A DNA stretch of 64,000 nt from Phorcus lineatus (lineage: Eukaryota; Mollusca; Gastropoda; Trochida; Trochidae). Positions within the stretch are counted from its first letter, which is position 1; each line of letters begins with the position of its first letter. The notes under the pieces were generated by a model that saw only the letters and a program-made list of their open reading frames with translations, was not told where the DNA came from and did not search any database. The stretch spans positions 25,668,946 to 25,732,945 of the forward strand of contig OV121084.1 of NCBI GenBank assembly GCA_921293015.1, written 5' to 3'. The translations under genes were made by a program, and so were the position numbers. Positions 3,001-63,539 of this stretch are shown in pieces.

Positions 3001-5429
3001 AGTTACTTAACATGTGGATGAAAATCATCCAAATGATAGTGGACAGTTCAGGGAGAAAAATTATCGAAAGGGTGAGGGAAAATACAGTGTGAAAGACATA
3101 ATGAAAAACAGACAGCAGGTATTAGAATGATTCAAATTTGGTCTGGCTTCTACCCGTTGATGTCTCTGTTTGGAAGCCCCTACCAGGAGCATGTAAGCTA
3201 GGGCTGGCATAGCTCTCAGGGTCACTGAAGCACCAGAACCACCACACTGCGATAAGGTACTGAATCAAGTGGTGGATCTCAAGACAGACCACTGAGCATG
3301 GTTTGAAATTAAGAAATAATACATGTATAAGTACCATTTTCTCTCTATTAAGAGCTAGGCCTTTTATAAGCGTTGGGGTCAAAGGTAGTTGAGAAAATGG
3401 GGGCAGGGCCTAAAGTAACAAGTGCTGGATCTCCAACAACCGCCTGAACACTAATCTAAGCACCGGGGAGACAAGGGGAGCTATTTAAAGGAAATATAAT
3501 ACACTTAAGTATTAGAATGTGTTATTTCTACTTACGTTGAACTTCTGTACCAGAGAGTTCAGATGTGGAGACAAGACGAGTTTGCGTTTTTGTGTACAAT
3601 CGGCAAGGGTGATGTCATATGCATCTGCTGCTTCACTGCCGCTTGAACCAGTTTGTTTCACAAAAATTGGGTCAATCAAATAGCGACTTATGTTCAATAC
3701 CTGTCAGAATAAAAAACAAATAATTTTATCATTTACATTATAGTTGACTTTCCTAAGTATTTAGATAATCTCTAGTCTGCTGTTGTCTTTACACTGTTCG
3801 GGAAATCCTGAAATGGATTTTTGAAACGTCAATCATTTTATAAACAGCCAGTCTAGGAAGAAAAACATACTCAGAGGGACATTAAATGAACATTTTTGTC
3901 AGATAATTAGCATATGCGGATTTCCCAGTATTAAGCAGATGGCTAATCTAACACAGGTTTGCAAAGGTTTAGAAAATAGGCCTCTGTCTACAAATAGTGT
4001 AGGCCTATGGGTTAAAGCAGACAGCCTCACAGGAATCCAGGGATTAAACATGAACTTATTAGTATGAAATGAACGCTATCGATGAATTGCTGGGAAAATA
4101 GATTCTATCGTATAGTGTCAGTTTCACTTCCTAGATACATAATCTGTTGTTCGTACTGGAAACTATTAGTTTACATTCAAGTTCAATGTGACGTAGTTCA
4201 AATAATCAAAACTTCGGTTTATGTGGGTTTACTGCGCACCTAAAGTTTAGAGCCTATTTTATCTGTAGCAGCTTCCGATGATTTAGATCTTGTAGGGTGT
4301 TGCCTTCTTAGTCAATATAAACGAAACATCTTACTCAAATTGACACAAGGATTGAAAGATAAACCCTCTTGTTTCTTTTTTATTCAGTGGCATCGAATTC
4401 ATTGCTACCCCCTTCCCAAGATAGTGTCTGTCAATGTTGTAAAACAAGAGGAGGGAGGCAACGAATTCAAAGTTGCTGAACAAAAAAGAAACGTTTGTGA
4501 CAGCAGTTCGATATAATAGCCAAAGAGTTTATCTTTGCATCCTTGTGTCATTTGAAGTTAGATGTTTCGATTGTATTGTCTTAGATGGAAAAACCCTTCC
4601 TGATCAAATTTGTTGAGAAGCTGCTACAGATAAAACAGGCTTTGGATCGAAGACAGCAATGAGGGAAGACGTCTAGCATGCTTTACAGCCGTGTCGGGTA
4701 AAGATACGCACTTTCACAAAACTTAACCTAGCAAAACAGGATGAGTTTTTGCTTATATATTGATGTCTTTGCATCTTTAGGCAATTTTTGAGATATCATG
4801 GAGTATTTTTTAAAGAAAACAGGACTTAAATGTTGACTAGTGGCACAGAATTTGTTAAAACTGACAAAATTTCTACCAAACAAGTCGTCATCAAGCACTT
4901 TGACTTTCCACATCACAATTGTCATTGGAAACCATATATTGATCCGACTATCGGTTTGTCTTTACCAAAACTTCAGAAGACAGTTTTAAAATCTATCAAA
5001 ATCATAATAATGGAAAAAGTTAGGAGTATTCAAACCCTGCGTGCGTATCTTTAGCCTCAACATGCCGACCTATGTGTAAAAGGGGTGTAGTCGTTTGAAA
5101 ACTTTCACTTTCAGTGTCACTGACTAGCACATTTCAACATCGATATATTTTACATTACAAATCGGAAGAATGAACATGTATCTCTTAGGTGCGTAGCTTA
5201 ACCCGACACCACTGTATACTATAAATGTGACGTTGGTGACTTTGTTTACAAACAACAAGTCACGTGAAAAACTTTCATTAATTTTCTATTTTAGCCAAAA
5301 TGAATAATATACCAGAAACTTATCGGTATGGATGTTAACGTTGTTTATTTCAGCTAATCTGACGGCCTCCTCAAGCTCATTCAGTTTTGTCTTAGAGATA
5401 AAATTCGAACGATTCGATTCTACCGCCAT
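1..5429 (-). CDS. RADX: RADX-like RPA-related ssDNA-binding protein, N-terminal part (seven exons, continues off the left edge)
   Basis: RADX is a nuclear RPA-like OB-fold protein that binds single-stranded DNA at replication forks and antagonises RAD51. Exons on the minus strand, in order: 5313-5429, 3536-3700, 2630-2762, 1813-1953, 941-1119, 660-739 and 1-103 (partial). All introns are GT-AG and all phases agree (0, 0, 1, 1, 0, 2), giving 306 open codons. The start is the ATG at 5427-5429 (context AAATATGGCGG, also a YY1-like motif). Diagnostic blocks match vertebrate RADX as I remember it: 'YDITLADC' followed by 'SPHLNSLVQKF' in exon 2, 'TVYLTKCEVRFDETD' in exon 3, 'PPVLVRVIRKSRL' in exon 5, 'YLVCDKSGYCTLVLWNVL' in exon 6 and 'EGTVLMLRNFTVKKSF' in exon 7. 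These cover the N-terminal region and the first OB-fold-type region. The human protein is about 850 aa, so roughly the last 60% lies outside the window. The N-terminal 39 residues are less conserved. No frame damage is seen. Confidence 0.88.
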
Positions 5430-6127: not shown

Positions 6128-6270
6128 TATATGTATCATCCCAACTGCGGATCCGCCCCATCTTAAGATGGGACGCGTCCCAACTTGGGATTCCAAGTTG
6201 GGACGTCCCATCTTGAGATGGGACTAGGGATACTAAAACATGTTAATAATATTCTTATTTTATAATGTAT
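6128..6270 (+). repeat. Left terminal inverted repeat made of stacked palindromes
   Basis: The order is a diverged CCCAACTGCGG, the palindrome CCCATCTTAAGATGGG (6157-6172), linker ACGCGT, a near-perfect 24-bp palindrome (6179-6202, CCCAACTTGG mirrored), linker ACGT, and CCCATCTTGAGATGGG (6207-6222). The linkers are themselves palindromic, so the array can extrude as several adjacent short hairpins. Confidence 0.8.
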
Positions 6271-7628
6271 TGTGTCAGTAAAACATGTTTTTAGATGATG
6301 TTGTTATATTCTTTTCACACCTACGAAGAAAAGTTGATATGATGTTCATTTACTTCACTTTCTCACTCGGTTTCATCTGTAATCGAGTACGAACGATTCA
6401 ACACTACTCAAACATTTATTTAAAGTCACATTTGATTACTGATTGAATCACATTTGTTAAGCGACATAACAAAATCAGATCAATATATATATATTTATTT
6501 TTGGATAATAGTTTTCAGCATTTTTCAAACGACCAATACACGCGTAGATCGAACAGCTGTAAACAGAGAGAAACCAAACGGCTCCACATTTCACAGAGAC
6601 ATCTATGTATCTTAGTTTCTTTAAAAAAAGGTGGTATAAACTTTTAACAATCAAAGATATGAAGTTATTCTAATACAGATCCAAGTTTTACAATACTAGT
6701 GATAAATTGCTTTTTTTAAACATATATTTAAAAAACGTACCTGATACAGAGAAACGAATAATCCATGCAATAAAAACTTCTAAAAGCAGAAATTAAGGTA
6801 CTCTCCATCGTTACAATCCAGCACTGAATAGACTGAATGTGTTAATGTGACAGCTTGGCGTGACAGAGGACGAATGATTGGGCACCAATTTGCCCACCGT
6901 AGGTAGTGTCAGGCTAAAACAACATATGGAGACACCATAAACCTATGTTGTTTTAACAAATTATTATCATGTTTATCTACTTGGCGACTTGGTTGATTGT
7001 ATCAAATGTTAAAAAAATTAAAAGTTCCTATTATCAAAGTCTGGTTCCCCAACATTTTAGATATTTTCAACTAGTGTGAACTTAGAGTTCATTGAATATT
7101 CCCTGGTAACTCATTTCAATATACTAAAATCTATCTTAACGGCGACAAATCTTTGTCACAGAGTGTTAACGAATTCCTAATAATATCTGTTTATCATTTC
7201 ATAAATGATGCCAACCGATTTTTAAAGCTCTTTCCTAAAAGTTGTACAACATGACAAATAGGTATTTGCTGCCTGTTGCTAATCCTTTTCCTTTATCCTT
7301 TTTATCCTTTTTCTATACATATATTCTAAATTCAGCTGTAAAACAACAATATTACACTGAAATGTAATTCTTCCTTACTTACTTAAGTTAAGAGTTTAAC
7401 GAGCGCTTTCCAGCGAATGCTGATGTAACGCTCGGGCCGCAGCCTTTATAAATAGGTGCTAAAAGGGGGTGATTATTTGTTAAGCCTGGTCTAAAAAGGT
7501 GGGAGGGAGTATTTTTTAAATTTAGAAATTTGGAATGGTCGTAGAGCCTAGGTTAAGGGAGAGAAAAGGGCGGGGTTGGGAGGGGGGAGAGGTGTGGTGT
7601 GTTGTGGTGTGTTGTGAGTATTTTAGTT

Positions 7629-7988
7629 TTAGATACGAGCCAGGAGGCCCGTTTCTTTTAGGTATGTGCCTAAGGCGTGGTGTATGTGTGTTTTATTTTG
7701 AGGGTTTAGTATTTGATGTATGTTGGTGGGGTTTAGGCCACTTGTTGCTAGTGTTGCGTTGAGTGTTGTGCGATGTGTTGAGTAGTATGTGCATTGGGTG
7801 AGAATGTGGTGTATTGTTTCTGGGTGTTGGCAATGTGGGCAGTTGGGGGATGCAATATGTTTTTGTTTATGTTTATGTGTGTTGAGGCGGGTATGCCCCG
7901 TTTGTAATTCGCACATGAGTTCAACTTTTAGTGTCTCCCCGACGTTAATCCCTTGTAACAACAACCCAAAAACAACATAGCACTTCAA
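7629..7988 (-). mobile_element. Non-LTR retrotransposon 3' fragment (C-terminal zinc-knuckle region)
   Basis: An open frame of 119 codons ends with the tail typical of I/Jockey-type LINE ORF2 proteins. The motif 'ELQTGHTRLN' is followed by a CPHC...H...C zinc knuckle ('CPHCQHPETIHHILTQC') and a short helical tail. The reverse transcriptase and endonuclease domains are absent, so this is a 5'-truncated copy. Its 3' untranslated part probably continues to about 7440. It sits inside the 6128-9694 foldback element, either nested in it or carried by it. The ATG at the start of the frame is not meaningful; the homologous part begins around codon 18. Confidence 0.6.
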
Positions 7989-9551
7989 AGGATTTTTTCA
8001 GGGTCGACAAAACGGTAAGACACCTGTAATTCTTCCCTCTCACCTACTCATCTTATTTGACTCAGTTGACCAGTTGATTAACTTATTAGCAGTAACAACA
8101 CACAACAATTCTCTCAATTCAACGCTTCTAAAAAGCATAGATAGACGCTTGTACATATAAAAACAACCTTTTCTCAACTCTGTACCCTGGTTTGTGGCAA
8201 AAAATCTTGCGAAGGTAAACAAAGTTTATTAATGAACTCAAAGTAAACAAACTCCGTTTATAATCTTCTTGTAGTAATGATAAGAAATGAGTTTATGAAA
8301 TGGAAATATTGTATTTATAAATTAGCATGAAAAAATTGCCTTTGCAATATTGAATATCTTAACCGAATTGTGTTGCAACGGTAGATCGTATTTGTTTGAC
8401 TTTGTGTTGTATGTTTGATGGTTTCAAAATTAAATTTCTATTGGCGCGGCATTAATATAAGCTTCCAGATTGCTATTTTCTTTTTTTGAAATGAATAAAA
8501 TATGTTTAAACCATAGTTTCTCTTGTACATCTTGGAAACTAAGTTCTAATTTTTTTTAAAATCTATTAAAGAGTCTGCTATTTCCCCATAAATAAGCAAT
8601 GGACGATGTTAGATTTCATTTTGGTAAATATAATCGTTCTGTTTATGAAAAAAATATTTTGAATATATTCAGTGTGGCATAACAACATTCATCGAATAAC
8701 AATACAATAACAAAAAAACATAAACTTTTGTTGTTGTTTTAGGTTAGGGTTTGATCACGTCTGCTTCCACCTATCAGTGATATTGCCGATAGGGGCCAAT
8801 GCCTTGATAAATATGAATGATAATCATTGACTAAAACAACAAACGCTCGACGTGTACCTTTGTAGTGTTACAAGCATGCTCATGTACAATTGGTACCCAT
8901 TCTTGTCACTAATTGGAAGGTGACACACAGGTATTAGTGTCATAACCGAACCGGATGTTTACCAAAATCCCTTCTTCCGGACATCCCCCCCTAAACCCCT
9001 TAACCCCCTCCACCCATCTCTGAACTACCAAGCAGGTACTAGTATGTTTGCCATTTGCACCACGACACTGAACAGATCAGGTTCGATCGGAAATATGAGG
9101 AGGCATAACTGGATTTATTTACTGGACATCTTATAAGCATTGACGGAACACGACTTATAGGTTAGTGTTTGTGAATTAGGTCTAAGAAACTTAAAGTTTT
9201 AGATACTACTATCAAACATAACGAGTATATTGAAATCTTGCTTAACGGAACGGTTTATGTTTAAGAAATTAGCATTCACCAAGAGTGGGTTTTGAGTGTA
9301 TAATTGAATATAATTTCTTTTTTTTCTATTTGCTTAACATGCTGTCACAATATTTAAGAATATAATGAAATAAAATAAAATTTTGTATAAGAATTACTTT
9401 TGAAATCGTATTGTGCTATGATGAAAGACTAGTATGCGATGAGAGATAGATATAGCCAATAAGTCATGAAAATCAACATAAAAACAAAATATCGTTCGAG
9501 GTCCATAAACCGCTTATCTAAAGGATACATCTTATCATGTTATTACTAAAT

Positions 9552-9694
9552 TCAACATTAGAATAAGAATATTATGAACATGTTAAAGAATCCGCCGCCC
9601 CATCTCAAGATGGGACGTCCCAACTTGGAATTCCAAGTTGGGACGCGTCCCATCTTAAGATGGGACGCGATCCCAAGTTGGGATGATACATATA
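9552..9694 (-). repeat. Right terminal inverted repeat made of stacked palindromes
   Basis: This is the reverse-complement counterpart of 6128-6270. It holds CCCATCTCAAGATGGG (9599-9614), ACGT, a perfect 24-bp palindrome centred on GGAATTCC (9619-9642), ACGCGT, CCCATCTTAAGATGGG (9649-9664), ACGCGAT, CCCAAGTTGGG (9672-9682), and the terminus ending GATGATACATATA. Confidence 0.8.
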
Positions 9695-11777: not shown

Positions 11778-13342
11778 CAGGCCCCCCTGAGTAATTGAAG
11801 GAAATGCATCAAATTTGAAGGAAAACAGTGCATAATAGAAGGGAAAGCTTCCCAAATGGTAGGAAACGCAGCTTAATCGCGAAACAAACACGTCAATATC
11901 GGTGAAACGCGGTAATATCAGAGATTTTCCCGTCCATATCGGAAGCAACCCGATCCCACTTTCGAAGGAACCCGATCCCACCTTCGAAGGACCATCGGTA
12001 GACTTCGGAAGGAACACGGTAATTTCCGTGAATTCTCGGTCGACAGCGGAAGCAAACGCATCTCAAAATGGCTACGAATCTGCAGTCTCCAGTTTCGGTG
12101 AGTGTTGTTTATATGTTTTACTGTGTGGTTTTTAGATGTATTTTGTTCTACATGCTTGCATTGAAAGCGCATTTGAACAAGGAAACGATGGAGTTGTAGA
12201 GTTTTGTAATGAAATTGAGTAGTTACGGCGTTACTCGCATAGAGTTCGGGTTTGTTTACATCAGTCAGATGAAGCCGTATCGCTAACGCTATCATCGACC
12301 CGCGTCTGTGATTGCGTTTACCTGCATCAGACTTTCCGGGTTATATTTTTGATAAGTTTTGGAAATATGTATGTGAATTTTGTGAGTATGTTATGTATCA
12401 CGTTTAAATCTAACTTTCGTTTTTGTACAATTAAGCTTTATCGAAAAACTTGTAAGTTTTCATGTTTTGTTAACGTGCCGCTCCATATGCCGCACTTCTT
12501 TGACCTTGTTTCGTTTGACCATTTAAATATCCCATTTATTAGGGACCGTGTTTGGAATTATCTCGAAATCGCTTTGCAACCACTTGTTGATTATTTCACG
12601 AGTTAGCGGCAGTTTGCCTAATTCAACTAGAACAGAGTTACTTCCCTTTGTCGTATCGATCGACTTCGGGAATTTAGATTCTTGAGACCTGCGTTTGACC
12701 TACAAAATAGAAAATTATTGGCGAGTATCTTATATATTTACATTCCAGGTTATGAGGTCACAAAATTCACATACATATTTCCAAAACTTATCAAAAATAT
12801 AACCCGGAAAGTCTGATGTAGGTAAACGCAATCACAGACGCGGGTCGATGATAGCGTTAGCGATACGGCTTCATCTGACTGATGTAAACAAACCCGGACT
12901 CTATGCGAGTAACGCCGTAACTACTCAATTTCATTACAAAACTCTACAACTCCATCGTTTCCTTGTTCAAATGCGCTTTCAATGCAAGCATGTAGAACAA
13001 AATACATCTAAAAATCACACAGTAAAACATATAAACAACACTCACCGAAACTGGAGACTGCAGATTCGTAGCCATTTTAAGATGCGTTTGCTTCCGCTGT
13101 CGACCGAGAATTCACGGAAATTACCGTGTTCCTTCCGAAGTCTACCGATGGTCCTTCGAAAGTGGGATCGGGTTGCTTCCGATATGGACGGAAAATCTCT
13201 GATATAACCGCGTTTCACCGATATTGACGTGTTTGTTTCGTGATTAAGCTGCGTTTCCTACCATTTGGGAAGCTTTCCCTTCTATTATGCACTGTTTTCC
13301 TTCAAATTTGATGCATTTCCTTCAATTACTCAGGGGGGCCTG
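11778..13342. mobile_element. Long-inverted-repeat (foldback) DNA element, 1565 bp
   Basis: The arms are 11778-12385 (608 bp) and 12758-13342 (585 bp), near-identical reverse complements around a 372-bp spacer. The terminus is CAGGCCCCCCTGAGTAATTG at both ends. The sequence GATGT lies immediately outside both ends (11773-11777 and 13343-13347) and looks like a 5-bp target-site duplication. The length difference between arms is mostly a 22-bp tandem duplication ('cccgatcccac-ttcgaagg') in the left arm. No transposase is visible, so the element is non-autonomous. The CAGG start recalls hAT or P-type ends, but those normally duplicate 8 bp, so I leave the superfamily open. The matching 119-125-codon frames in the two arms are the same sequence read outwards and are not evidence of a gene. 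Confidence 0.8.
12068..12097 (+). other. Start-exon-like segment inside the foldback arm (ATG plus splice donor)
   Basis: ATGGCTACG and the next seven codons (MATNLQSPVS) lead directly into the donor 'TTCG|GTGAGTG'. An 'AGCGGAAGC' ETS-like site and 'AAAATGGC' (YY1-like) lie at or just before the ATG. The same arrangement is preserved on the minus strand in the other arm, with its ATG at 13073-13075. This may be a captured host promoter and first exon; it could also be chance. Confidence 0.3.
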
Positions 13343-26104: not shown

Positions 26105-29100
26105 TCAATAGTACTTGACAGATTGTTTTCTCCGAGAGCTCTGAAACAGACAAACAAGGGACTATCAATTGTAGTATATTTACACACCTAAGAAACATAC
26201 GCCCTTTCCATCAAGTTAAACATGTCCACTTTCCACAGTGCAAACACATATGTATGTTCAATAAATTCTTGAAGGACCAATCCATAGCTTTGCAAGTACG
26301 GCAATAATTCACTTCATTGTTCTTCACCTGTGAGAAATCCTTAGACTGCCCATGACTATACTGATATCTCATAGCAAGTTTTTATAATTTTGAGTCATAC
26401 TTGTCCATCAGGGCAAGTGAAAAGATATCAACTTTTTTGTATTCCAAATGACATACGATTTAATAAATTACATTATTCCGAAGTGTGAATATTGAGTCTT
26501 CAAGAATGACAATTATATCAATTTATTCTGACTTGGTGTTTAGAAACTTTGATTTGTAAGTGACCTGACTCGGTGAAAATTACGAATCTTACGTAGTCTA
26601 AATGAAATCATACCTTACGAGTTCCCTTCGGCTTTTTAGAAAATCGTTCTTTCCTCTCAATCCTTCGTTTCTTTTCTTTTTCCTTCTGTATCTGTCTGAG
26701 CGACCTCTCCAACTCTTCTGTAGTTCTTTTGGAGTGAAGGTGGCGTCGTCTTGTCATCCTGCGAACTGGCTGCTCATCTAAACACGTCTACGATGCGAAA
26801 CGTAAACATTTATATAATTAGTGCCTTGATTATTATGCAGTATTATCTCACAGGGAATAACAAAACTTCAGTCTTCAGTTTTCATTGTTTTTTGCTCATA
26901 AATCATTTACATGTGCAATGGGTTCAACATCCACAACTGTCTTAATGACGGTACTGTTGTTGAAGACTTTAAACAATCAAATATCAAACTGTATTTTGTT
27001 TGAATTGAAAAAAATAACAAATAAATTAATCAAATGAATAAATGAAGAAATAAAGCAATTGAAAAAAAAAAAATAATGTGTGAATATTGATGTCTGAATA
27101 AATGGATAAAGAGATAGATAGATAGGATGATGGATGGATGGATGGACAGACATAGATAAATAGATGAAAGTGTCGGCTATAACGTCTTCCCTTCTTTGTA
27201 ATCGTAGTGTATTTATTCAAACAGTAATTTGCACTAATGACTAACGACTATGTTATCACTTTCCCCATGGCATGTGCTGTAAACAGTATTATTCAACATG
27301 AACCATTTGCTATCACATTGAAATATTTTTATTTTTTATGAATGTTTCCAACCTTTGATAAGAAAAGGAAATGAGCCAATGAACCAAAATATTCAGCTCT
27401 ACTACATACCTTGATTTTAAATTTTAATGTTTGAACTTAATTTTTTCCTATTACAATGAAAAAAAGTATTTATTCATAAATTAAATTATAACAAGTGTTA
27501 GAATTTAATTCACAACATTGCTTTTAATAAGACTATAATATAAAAGAAATTTAAATTTGAAAGCAAACTCTTACCCAAACGTTTGTTATTAGTCTTGGAG
27601 GTTTCGGAGCTGGTTTGACTGGTTCAACGACATGAACCAAATCTTCTGTCATTTCAAGCAGGTAGTCTATCACATTGTTCTCTGTCAACTCTTCTGTGTT
27701 GAGTATATGCTTCTCAACTGCAGTCACGTCTTGTTTGTCATCATCTGTGGGGAATAAATCATCGTGCTCATAAGTGGATTTCTTATCCATTTAAAATTGA
27801 TAGAATGTTAAAAGATTAATAATGGTTTTTTATTCATTTAATAAATTTATAGATTTAAAAAAGTTGTATATCTTTAAGCAAATGAGTTCTTACCATTGAA
27901 CTAACAAGCCGTTTTATTGATGAGTAAAGTAAACAAAACTTTAATTAAAATGCAAAATAAGTCTTCAATGAATGACTGTTAAAACATACCTATAAAATCT
28001 AGTATGTCCGGCACATTAAAATTACCGAATCCTGGACCGTTTTGAAAATTGTCTAATGCACTTAAAACCATTGGTGTTGCTATTACGAAACCATCTGTTG
28101 ATATTCTGAAAAGACAGGAAAAAATATGATTAGCACTTTAAAAAATATTCTATCCCAAAATTAGTACGCATCATCTGAATGTTTAATTTTGAAATAATGA
28201 CTTTATCATTTTCATTAACAAAGTGAAAACATCAATTATTACAAATCTAAACGTGTATACTGTTTACTACTGATAATCGCTCCTAATTGAATATATATAA
28301 CGATTTATAAAGGATTTTATCTTTATCGATTTAGATTAAAACCAAATACACACCCATTTTTTAATGTAAGCAGATATTATTAAATTAACTTCTACATATA
28401 TCAACGCGCTTATGAGGAGTCACACATCCCAAAATGTAAGAGCAAGAAGTACCAACTGTTTTAGAAGAATAATATTATAATATTTATCAGATGATAGTAT
28501 GAAGTTACTAAGTCGCGATTGTGATCGAAAACCGGATAATGACGTACTTCAATAAGTGAAACGTTATTAAATTTTAGAAACCTAACTTTAGCGTTTATAT
28601 ATTACTAATAGTATAATAGTATGTTGGACGTTTATATCGGCTTTCGCGCATTTATAAGGCTATTGTTTAGATGTTCAGTTATAACAAGTATATATAGTTA
28701 TGATACATAAGTGGTAAATAAGAAAATTTATTATAACACCAGCTATGATATTTAGGTTCATATCAAAGCCAAATAATTTCATGAAAATCACCAAGGGTCT
28801 CTGGTTTGTGGCAAGTTGTGAATCTTTTACGTACGCTTCTGCCTTTCTTTGACATGACGTTGGTGTAACAGGCACGCTCCTTCTCAGTGAATATCTGGAT
28901 GAAGACGGAGTTCTGGGTGTAGTAGGGATATTGAATTTGACACTGGCTGATGCTGATGGGCGTGTTGACGAAGGCTTTCGTCCACTGAATATCATTGGAG
29001 TTTTGAACCCGTCATTCAAAACTTCTTTCGACGTCTCATGTTCAAATCTTGCTAATATATCGTCCTTTCTCTGTTGTAGTGATTCTAATTCTGCTCTCTG

Positions 29101-29697: not shown

Positions 29698-32600
29698 ATG
29701 TGTGAAGATTGTGTCAAAGAGGAGTTTCCTGAACGGGTATTTTACTTTTTAAATGCTTTAATGACCATAATAAGCAATATATTTGATTTTCAGGCTTTGT
29801 ATTATGTCAGTTACTAAAGTGATCGAGTGAAATACTTTAAACCCAGGAGAGGATTGAAATTTTCAATCATGAGTATCAAATGAAGTTGAGCTTCAGGCCC
29901 AGTAAAATTGTATTTTATACACTGTAAATATATATGTGCGGGGCTTTTATTTCATAGTACACTCTGAACCTCTTCAGTGAATTTGAAACATCTGATCATA
30001 AAGTGTTTATGATAAATGAATATTCATAATGTAATGGTAACTTGATTATGATAAGACGTTCGAGGAATCTATGAAAGTACACAGAACAAGTAAAGAATAA
30101 GTAAATAAATGGAGCATATTTTATGAGTATCCATGTAATATTATCATTATATTTATCACGACTGCCTTAATATAACTATTTCCTTAGCAAGAGGGTGACA
30201 AACCATTATTCAAGCATGCATTGTATGATATATGTTACATGTCTCACTTCTTTCATAAATAAGTAATACATGATGCCATTACAATGTTTAAGGGAATAGT
30301 CTGGTAAATATTTATCCTTTAGTTAAGTTAAGTTAGAATTATATAAAGATAAATATTTACCAGACTATTCCAGATATGTTTTAATACCTCATAATGAGGT
30401 GAGATGAAACAGAGTTAAATGCAGCTTTCTAGAGTATTTTACTTAGATTGTGGCTGCTAGTATTATTGCAGGGAAAAAGCCCGCAACATCATTGTGGCTA
30501 TGTATTGTGGTAAAACCTGTGAGCATCGGCTGGAACATGCAAAGCATGGATGGTACTGCACTGAAATTCAGTGTAGCATTGCACCAAAACCTTACTGCGT
30601 GTAGAACGGTTCTGAACTGCAGACAAAGTTACCAAGACTTCTTGGTACGAAGCTGATTGCTCTAACCATTGTGCTATCCCTCCCCCACCCCCCTCCCCCC
30701 AAATAATAATGAATTTTCTCATTTCTGTTTGCACTTATATCTAATTTGAATGGCTGCTTTCACAGAAGATAGCAATTTATAATCTTTCTTGGTAGAAGGA
30801 GTAGAATGATTTAATTGTTTTCTTTAATTTTTCAACAGGATTCAATGTGTGTGGAAAATGGATCTTTCATGGTCAACTTTGCATGCTGTGCCCAGTGTAA
30901 AGCAAGGGGAGAAATCAAGGTTGTGAACAGGATCTGTAGTGAAGAAGAAAATGGAGATGAAATGATAACATATCAACGTAAGAATATTATTTCAAGCTCA
31001 GTATGTTATATGATTGGGTTATCTCCCTTTCATGAAAATCATCAGATGTTTCTGTGTCATTGCCATACAGGGGAAGACTTGAAGATCATAATCTGCTGAT
31101 GATTGACCCACACAATTCATTGGTTTGCAAAACATCCACTCATTAAATGTGTTTGCACAGTAACATTTAGCAGTGGAGGACAAACATTAGTTCTGTTTAG
31201 TTGTATGCAGTCAATGAAAAAAGTAATCACTTTCCCGTCTCCTCTCCTAGATTTTCTCAGGTACTGCAGAAAGAATGAATCCTTCGAGCAAAGAAATATT
31301 CTCTGCCAACAGAGGTACCTCCGGTCATATCACCCTATGCTAACATTGCTTTTATTTTGAGCATTTTCTGAGGTTCTAGCTGATTCCCCTAGCAGCAAAA
31401 AAATTACTACAGAACTATGTAGCCATTGAACATGCGTTTTACATGGAAAAGCCTGCCTGATATCACACAGGCTGTATCTTTGATTCAGTTGCCGTTTCTT
31501 GTGTTTTATCACGAAAGCCTGTGTGAGCTTTTCACGGTTGAAAAACTTTAAGATTTTTTTTAGTGTTTTGAACTGACTGAGGCTTTGCAAAGGATTATGT
31601 TTGAAAGAGAGATTGCAAAACTAACATTGAGTGCATTCAATCAGGCATATGCATTTACAGCCCATAAAGGGCTCAAATTAAATCAGAGGTTAGCCATGGA
31701 GGTTAGATATGGCAAGGAAATTATAATTGTCCTTCATTTGTTTATCATCATTTCTTCTGCTTTCTTCCTGCAGATGTGTGTGAGTTTTGTGATCACGTTG
31801 TTGCTGACCATGAGTATGTCTTCAAAGTGGACGGCGATTATCAGGTAACAGATTTTGCTATTTCCTAATAATATATGTTTCTTTTTAGTTCAATAGAAGA
31901 AAATTACTGTCCAAGTCTGTATTACCACAATAACGAGGCAGTGAAGCTGATATATTTGATCAAAATGATTTTATGTTCAATTAGTGACCCGTGAATGAGA
32001 TGTTTTCAGTGTATATATTCATTCAGCTCCTTCATTTCCCTGATATCTATCAAGACAAATGCCTCACGTAATCAGCTGCTTGTTCATGGCTATGAATGGT
32101 ATGAATATTTTATTCCGGTTTGTTTTCAACAATTTAAAGTCGATCGAAACTTCCCTAAACATTCCCGCCGTTGGATCTCTCTCAGCATTTTTTCTGATCT
32201 AAAAGCTGTAGTTGTGAGCATTTACTCTTATGGATTCAAGTAAACAACTATATTAACACAGCTGTTGAAACTATCGAAAGTTAACTGTGCTATCTATACT
32301 ATCGATTGTTTTTTAAAATTGCGTTTGATGAGGTACTATCAGCAAAGCAACTACCACAAAAAGTCAATAGTTTGATCAAGTTACTCAGGTCATGAGTCAT
32401 GACCTAAACTCTTCCCCTAGAAGTAACAGTCTATGAAATCAGACATTATTTTTGATTTCTTGGATGATAAGAATTACTTTGTGGTCCTGATAAATTCAAT
32501 TAAGGAAAGCCCCAGAAGCTAAAATGTGTGTACAGACTGTTGTGGACATTTGAGGTAAGGATTTCATCTCATCAAATAAATTGGAGGGTCCTGTATAAAA

Positions 32601-62700: not shown

Positions 62701-62703
62701 CAA

Positions 62704-62771
62704 CCTGGTTCCCGGTCCTCGTTCCGCTTGCGCTACAGTAAGCGCAAGCGGAACGAGGCCCGGGAACCAGG
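62704..62771. repeat. GC-rich near-perfect hairpin, 31-bp arms, 6-base loop
   Basis: The left arm 62704-62734 starts CCTGGTTCCCGG and ends GTTCCGCTTGCGCT. It pairs with 62741-62771 at 30 of 31 positions around the loop 'acagta'. The GC content is far above the surrounding sequence. Confidence 0.92.
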
Positions 62772-63539
62772 ATGACACGCGTGGACCAACGACTTTAATT
62801 CTCCTCTACAGTTTGTTATAATTTGTTCGTTAGTCTGTCTGAAGCACTAATGATTTGAAAACATGTTTGATGTCATATCGTATGACAAATGAATCGTTTA
62901 TTAACGATGAGGATTCAGGCGTATGAATGTTGTTATAACATTACTATTGGCTTGTTTACAGCGAAGAAGTTGTTATCCAGAAACTCTTGCTCTTCTCATT
63001 GGCTTGTTATTTTGAAATGACTATCGCATTACAATCAGAGGGGATCAACAATTGAGAATAGCCTTTTCAATCTGAAGAATTATATAGAAGAATGGACGAC
63101 ATTTATTCGAATTGGCTGTGTCCGTTTATAGTTCTGTGTTCCGTTTCACATGACATGGATGACAACGTTAGTTTTATTACATTTGGGCGTTTCGCTTTAT
63201 ATTGAATTGTGAGAAGAATGGATATCTGTGTTGCTTTGTATTCATTTATTCGATTTAGTCTGCTGATCTGTTTGTAGTAATTTTAATTGTTATAAGAATG
63301 GATAAACACGTTGGCGTTTTAAATTCTTTTAGATTAGGGTTGAACATGCATGATATTAAGTTTGAAGATGATAAAAAAAATTAAAAATTAAAACGTTCTT
63401 TATATTCGTTAATTAAATTTAGTCATTTCTATATTTTGGATAAGGTTTATGTAGGTATATTGTAATACATAATGACTGTAAAAAGTAGACTGTATTATTT
63501 ATTTTTTTTTATTGAGATAGAGACAATTTAGGCGAAGCT

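Follow-up and report, generated by a model that had tools for sequence, protein, structure and literature searches.

The question raised by a locus in the genome of the trochid gastropod Phorcus lineatus is whether two inverted arrays of short palindromes, facing each other across about 3.5 kb, bound one mobile element or two, and how an element with such ends would move. The locus occupies positions 6128..9694 of a stretch of 64,000 nucleotides of contig OV121084.1 (assembly GCA_921293015.1), which is called the window here and whose coordinates are used throughout. The first part has a plain answer: the 3.5-kb unit is a single mobile element, not two independent miniature inverted-repeat transposable elements (MITEs). 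When the genome (957.8 Mb, 74 contigs) was searched with the left terminus, 1613 first-look candidates were obtained; 40 left-end places were scored, with 97–100% identity over 140–145 bp, and a further 40 rows were the same places on the opposite strand, found via the palindromic part of the query. Stretches of 10 kb were taken at 20 of the 40 scored places (L018 and 19 others lie outside these 20), so that, together with the window, 21 copies were read. The right end lies downstream of the left one in 20 of the 21 (19 of the 20 fetched stretches, and the window); in L035, the alignment stops within the right end. As 18 of those 20 two-ended copies also carry an exact 4-bp duplication outside the two tips, the ends behave as one unit. 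The family is probably high-copy. The left-to-right span is 2880–3559 bp in 18 of the 20. The two exceptions are L041 (4633 bp), in which a second left end is included, and L044 (9351 bp), which holds a nested long interspersed nuclear element (LINE), judged by eye from its open frame.

The unit begins at a left tip at 6132 (TGTATCAT) and ends at a right tip at 9690 (the end of ATGATACA), flanked by target-site duplications TATA at 6128..6131 and 9691..9694. Its terminal inverted repeats (TIRs) are about 140 bp long, at 6132..6271 on the plus and 9551..9690 on the minus strand. In an alignment of the arms, 6128–6262 against 9559–9694, 89.7% of 136 columns are complementary, which bears out the preliminary description in placing an inverted array at the opposite end 3.5 kb off; the limits that it gave, 6128..9694, are correct to within 4 bp. 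Each end consists of the 8-bp tip, the palindrome array, and then about 45 bp that are less well matched between the arms. Between the arms of the window copy, the array differs at 4 of 71 columns and the remainder at 15 of 72 (P 0.012), but low divergence was dropped as a sign of constraint, since the same left/right differences recur in other copies.

Two solo MITEs that happened to face each other would account for the compact, internally symmetric form of each end. However, the same unlike ends stand in the same order, with the interior, in 20 of the 21 copies, and the inner part of the TIRs outside the palindromes is common to both arms at 37 of 50 columns. MITEs are short elements of a few hundred base pairs, and the size found here is 2.9–3.6 kb in 18 of 20 copies. 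We therefore regard a chance pair as having a negligible probability. The preliminary description had considered the case of a terminus that occurs genome-wide only as a solo MITE with its own duplication; the copies read are instead two-ended in 20 of 21, with solo ends possible elsewhere in the genome, as the sample comes from the 40 best of 1613 matches. Separately, positions 1630–1959 of stretch L020 hold two family copies, the outer tips of which are separated by about 320 bp.

What distinguishes the ends is their palindromes. As had been described, CCCA..TGGG palindromes are stacked via ACGCGT and ACGT linkers, in the order P1-P2-P3 at both ends, with an additional P0 at the right. On the left, these are P1 at 6157..6172 (CCCATCTTAAGATGGG, 16 bp; present in all 30 left ends, one of which has a central G in place of A), P2 at 6178..6203 (TCCCAACTTGGGATTCCAAGTTGGGA, one mismatch) and P3 at 6207..6222 (CCCATCTTGAGATGGG, centre mismatched). 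On the right, P3 lies at 9599..9614, again with a mismatched centre, followed by a perfect 30-bp P2 at 9616..9645, a perfect 26-bp P1 at 9644..9669 that has its CG in common with the end of P2, and P0 at 9670..9684 (ATCCCAAGTTGGGAT). When the window was divided into 150-bp bins, at least three palindromes (at least 12 bp, with at least 4 G or C) were found in the two termini only (5 and 4), and among 60 first-order Markov controls the bin maximum was 1 in 28, 2 in 31 and 3 in one. Symmetry thus exists on three levels, namely the single palindromes, the P1-P2-P3 block and the two mutually inverted ends. The block itself is a single palindrome or hairpin of 72–74 nt with a 2-nt bulge, which stems from the unequal length of the two linkers (ACGCGT and ACGT); folded as single-stranded DNA, the 73- and 74-nt arrays reach -32.6 and -34.8 kcal/mol (z -11.4 and -11.6), and none of 200 shuffles was as good. 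The half-site common to the palindromes is TCCCAWCTT, the exact form of which occurs once in the window beyond the two ends.

The two ends are not equal. Where the right end reads CCCAACTTGGGATCGCGTCCC, the left end has CCCAACTGCGGATCCGCCCC at the corresponding place, and a left-end-only palindrome, GCGGATCCGC (6147..6156), stands in place of P0. Left and right ends are unlike in 20 of 20 copies, and this inequality does not reflect decay of the window copy, because GCGGATCCGC is present in 27 of 30 left ends, a figure favoured by choosing left ends similar to that of the window, and P0 in 17 of 20 right ends (in L031, L034 and L043 it is fused into P2). The right array, moreover, changes easily, as whole-palindrome changes are seen in 8 of 20 right ends. 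The full layout was found in 12 (11 at 96 bp, and L049 likewise with substitutions); the altered arrays measure 56 bp (L031, L034, L043), 66 bp (L038), 74 bp (L048), 68 bp (L050), 46 bp (L044) and 116 bp (L041), and these six forms differ by units that are whole or hybrid palindromes. The 56-bp form, which keeps P2 and P3 and has lost P1 and the long hairpin, occurs in L031 and L034 at loci with unrelated flanks (136 bp on the left, 600 bp on the right), which shows that loss of P1 did not prevent a right end from being propagated. Among the other altered right ends, the array may have changed later than the insertion.

These observations bear on the suggestion that the transposase recognises extruded hairpins or cruciforms rather than duplex dimer sites. 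The folding of P1-P2-P3 into one hairpin with a z of about -11 is what such recognition would call for, and slippage across hairpins would account for the whole palindromes gained or lost by 8 of the 20 right arrays. Duplex cut-and-paste, in contrast, agrees with a palindromic target duplicated over 4 bp and with tips placed outside the array, and the 56-bp array spread in spite of having lost the long hairpin; we therefore consider hairpin recognition improbable.

At the target site, an exact 4-bp duplication is found in 18 of 20 copies, or in 17 of 19 if L032 and L033, which have common flanks, are counted once, and five duplications are not TATA (GATA twice, TTTA twice, TCTA), which rules out a duplication of TA. 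The target consensus is T-R-TATA-Y-A. Among 30 left flanks, 28 have R at -5 and 28 have T at -6; among 20 right flanks, 18 have Y at +5 and 19 have A at +6. An empty site is available for L046, which lies inside a 58-bp tandem array; the monomers have the element-free target GTG-TCTA-TACTGAG, and the uninterrupted sequence, GTGTCTATACTGAG, has 79 exact occurrences in the fetched stretch. The window copy and L050 are inserted at the same position of a shared host repeat but face opposite ways, with flanks 91% identical on both sides; the pair may reflect two separate insertions at a preferred target, or a single insertion inverted by recombination of one end with the other. By eye, 28492–28680 is an uninterrupted relative of this host repeat; it matches the left flank at 74% over 77 columns and also continues into the right flank.

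Published systems of similar build at their ends, here and below compared through excerpts of the respective papers, are Sardine and Thon of Paramecium, Tc1/mariner elements whose long TIRs are themselves palindromic and contain repeated palindromic subsequences (PMC3464196); this paper was also the sole match to “internal palindromes” in the literature search. A Tc1/mariner relative would thus have a precedent for palindromic TIRs around DD35E transposases, and the left flank ends in TA at 28 of 30 ends. In contrast to these elements, the copies described here duplicate 4 bp and not TA, as the GATA, TTTA and TCTA flanks and the empty site show, and a gene was not found; Sardine and Thon are thus a precedent from another superfamily, and a place in Tc1/mariner appears very improbable.

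A better fit is offered by Ginger2/TDD elements, for which TIRs of about 50–180 bp, a 4-bp duplication, an RTATAY target and TGTNR termini are described (PMC2836005), along with a transposase that combines an H2C2 zinc finger with a DDE integrase-type domain. The family matches in TIR length class (about 140 bp), duplication length (18 of 20), RTATAY target (R in 28 of 30, Y in 18 of 20) and TG..CA tips. The tip, on the other hand, is TGTAT and disagrees with TGTNR at its fifth base at every end read (30 left, 20 right), the tips having been located by their own string. Neither an H2C2 zinc finger nor a DDE integrase-type transposase was found among the 14 of 18 open segments of at least 45 amino acids (aa) of the window copy that were scanned. 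The excerpted text of PMC2836005 is silent on palindromes in TIRs, and the literature matches listed (10 of 239) contain no case of palindromic TIRs in Ginger2; PMC9587614 has both words but concerns Kolobok. That the family derives from Ginger2/TDD proper and has lost autonomy, a sub-case of the reading favoured below, is a substantial possibility, though not one towards which we lean.

Taken together, we favour, as the probable but by no means secure reading, a high-copy, non-autonomous family of cut-and-paste DNA transposons of about 3.4 kb with integrase-type movement, in which the palindromes form an array of dimer sites. The palindromes can be described as tail-to-tail pairs of the TCCCAWCTT half-site and would constitute a putative dimer-binding array that loads the transposase on each end. 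A transposase of integrase type, supplied from elsewhere, would then join the tips; this step is suggested by the TG..CA tips, the 4-bp stagger and the RTATAY target as published for Ginger2 (PMC2836005). Palindromes may form hairpins during replication, whereby right arrays would gain or lose whole palindromes, and hairpins would not be needed for movement itself. The family is accordingly filed as a variant TIR DNA transposon that works like an integrase-type element.

Several points weigh against this reading. No transposase was recognised with Pfam in the scanned segments of the window copy, nor among the listed open frames of L044, L035, L036 and L040, judged by eye, and no autonomous relative was found there; for this reason, the family looks, and probably is, non-autonomous. 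The integrase-type step is deduced from three features, i.e., tips, duplication and target, and protein binding to the palindromes is putative. Since TGTAT does not fit TGTNR, the family is not filed under Ginger2. Several TATA sites, e.g., those of L003, L004 and L011, lie within TA repeats, so that the target logo is inflated. The sample stems from the 40 best matches and represents the youngest part of the family; locating tips via their own string lets tip variants escape, and left ends picked by likeness to an intact left end are bound to be uniform, which is uninformative on the stability of the left array. Two copies, finally, depart from the 4-bp rule: the duplication of L047 is TACTA (5 bp), and L045 (G000:C39:36585505-36595455) is flanked by a perfect direct duplication of 198 bp that abuts both tips and is not continued by the sequence beyond on either side, a longer tandem array not being seen there.

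The IS481EU elements resemble the family in their TGT..ACA termini and in 4-bp duplications with occasional longer ones, but they come from parabasalids, their TIRs are mostly shorter than 50 bp, and their longer duplications measure about 15 or 25 bp as opposed to 198 bp in the one copy here (PMC10045372). The mark of that group is an IS481-like DDE transposase. A more far-reaching reading would see a new integrase-type lineage with unequal, modular ends of palindromic dimer sites that can be resized by whole palindromes and still be mobile, and whose ends occasionally join distant targets, as in the 198 bp of L045; we rate this as a speculative outside option.

Among named classes, “Foldback element”, the label first given to the locus, turned out to be a poor one. 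Foldback elements of the FB/TU type have inverted repeats made of tandem direct repeats that fill much of the element, and here the arms take up about 140 bp of 3.56 kb, with no inverted similarity of the interior beyond chance: in three scorings, 41, 43 and 24 of 300 random window segments were as good. A longer foldback stem had been considered, as inverted similarity within the interior reached a score of 751 where the best of 300 shuffles gave 730, and was rejected as unremarkable beside the random window segments. Helitrons have neither TIRs nor a target duplication; both TIRs and a 4-bp duplication are present in the family. The Tm1 Mutator/Foldback elements likewise have composite TIRs built of repeats and many non-coding members, but these are tandem repeats of 13–15 bp with 9-bp duplications instead of inverted pairs with 4 bp (PMC3169594). 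ATon of Aedes aegypti is similar in being non-autonomous, with TIRs, stem-loops near both ends of ATon-I and no known autonomous partner, and differs in inserting at the dinucleotide AT without a 4-bp duplication (PMC3422177). Pattern scans of viral contigs and prokaryote genomes gave 0 matches; these collections hold few animal sequences and possibly exclude the records of this genome.

The interior of the window copy carries a passenger. A 5'-truncated LINE fragment lies on the minus strand at 7375..8024, with an open frame of 122 aa, between 12-bp duplications at 7363..7374 (TGTAATTCTTCC) and 8025..8036. It matches zf-RVT at E 0.00043, under the curated cut-off, and the reverse-transcriptase-like frame of L035 at 37% over 54 aa (E 0.002, weak); no match was found in plasmids or phages, and the Protein Data Bank returned only ribosomal protein L32 (E 0.16). 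L038 is uninterrupted at this site and has, by coordinates, one copy of the 12 bp, whereas L031–L034 have the same LINE and agree with the window copy at 98.7–99.0% identity along no fewer than 3516 of 3567 bp. The LINE-bearing subfamily (window, L031–L034) occupies four sites, the flanks of which are unrelated; L032 and L033 have their flanks in common. The LINE thus entered one element and then moved with it. Nine other compared copies have, at the place of the LINE, about 400–800 bp of a different, mutually related sequence, which would be the ancestral middle. LINE-like insertions containing long open frames were also noted within L035 and L044. An APOBEC-like fragment at 6478–6669 was discarded (Pfam E 0.0044, under the cut-off; in the Protein Data Bank only leucyl-tRNA synthetase, E 0.4), and other weak Pfam matches (E 0.06 to 0.18) were attributed to chance.

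Elsewhere in the window, whose G+C content is 31–40% in 2-kb steps, no Rfam match and, in a scan with the bacterial code, no tRNA was found. A second, unrelated inverted-repeat element comprises 11778–12385 and 12758–13342; its arms agree at 95% over 608 columns, its tips read CAGGCCCCCCTGAG, and a candidate 5-bp duplication, GATGT, stands on both sides; by eye, its arms show a start codon and then a splice-donor-like stretch. Further palindromes lie at 62701–62774 (GC-rich, 91% over 75 columns), 30293–30371 (86% over 81 columns) and 4251–4641 (large and degenerate, 64% over 428 columns).

The palindromes of transposon ends may serve as binding sites or as hairpins, and here one natural family combines right ends of varied palindrome number with differently built left ends. 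As at least one shortened right end has spread, the end requirements can be read from natural copies. If duplications such as the 198 bp of L045 were recurrent, they would bear on how strictly a single target receives both ends. Passengers, as the LINE fragment illustrates, are also carried along by a family with so many candidate copies.
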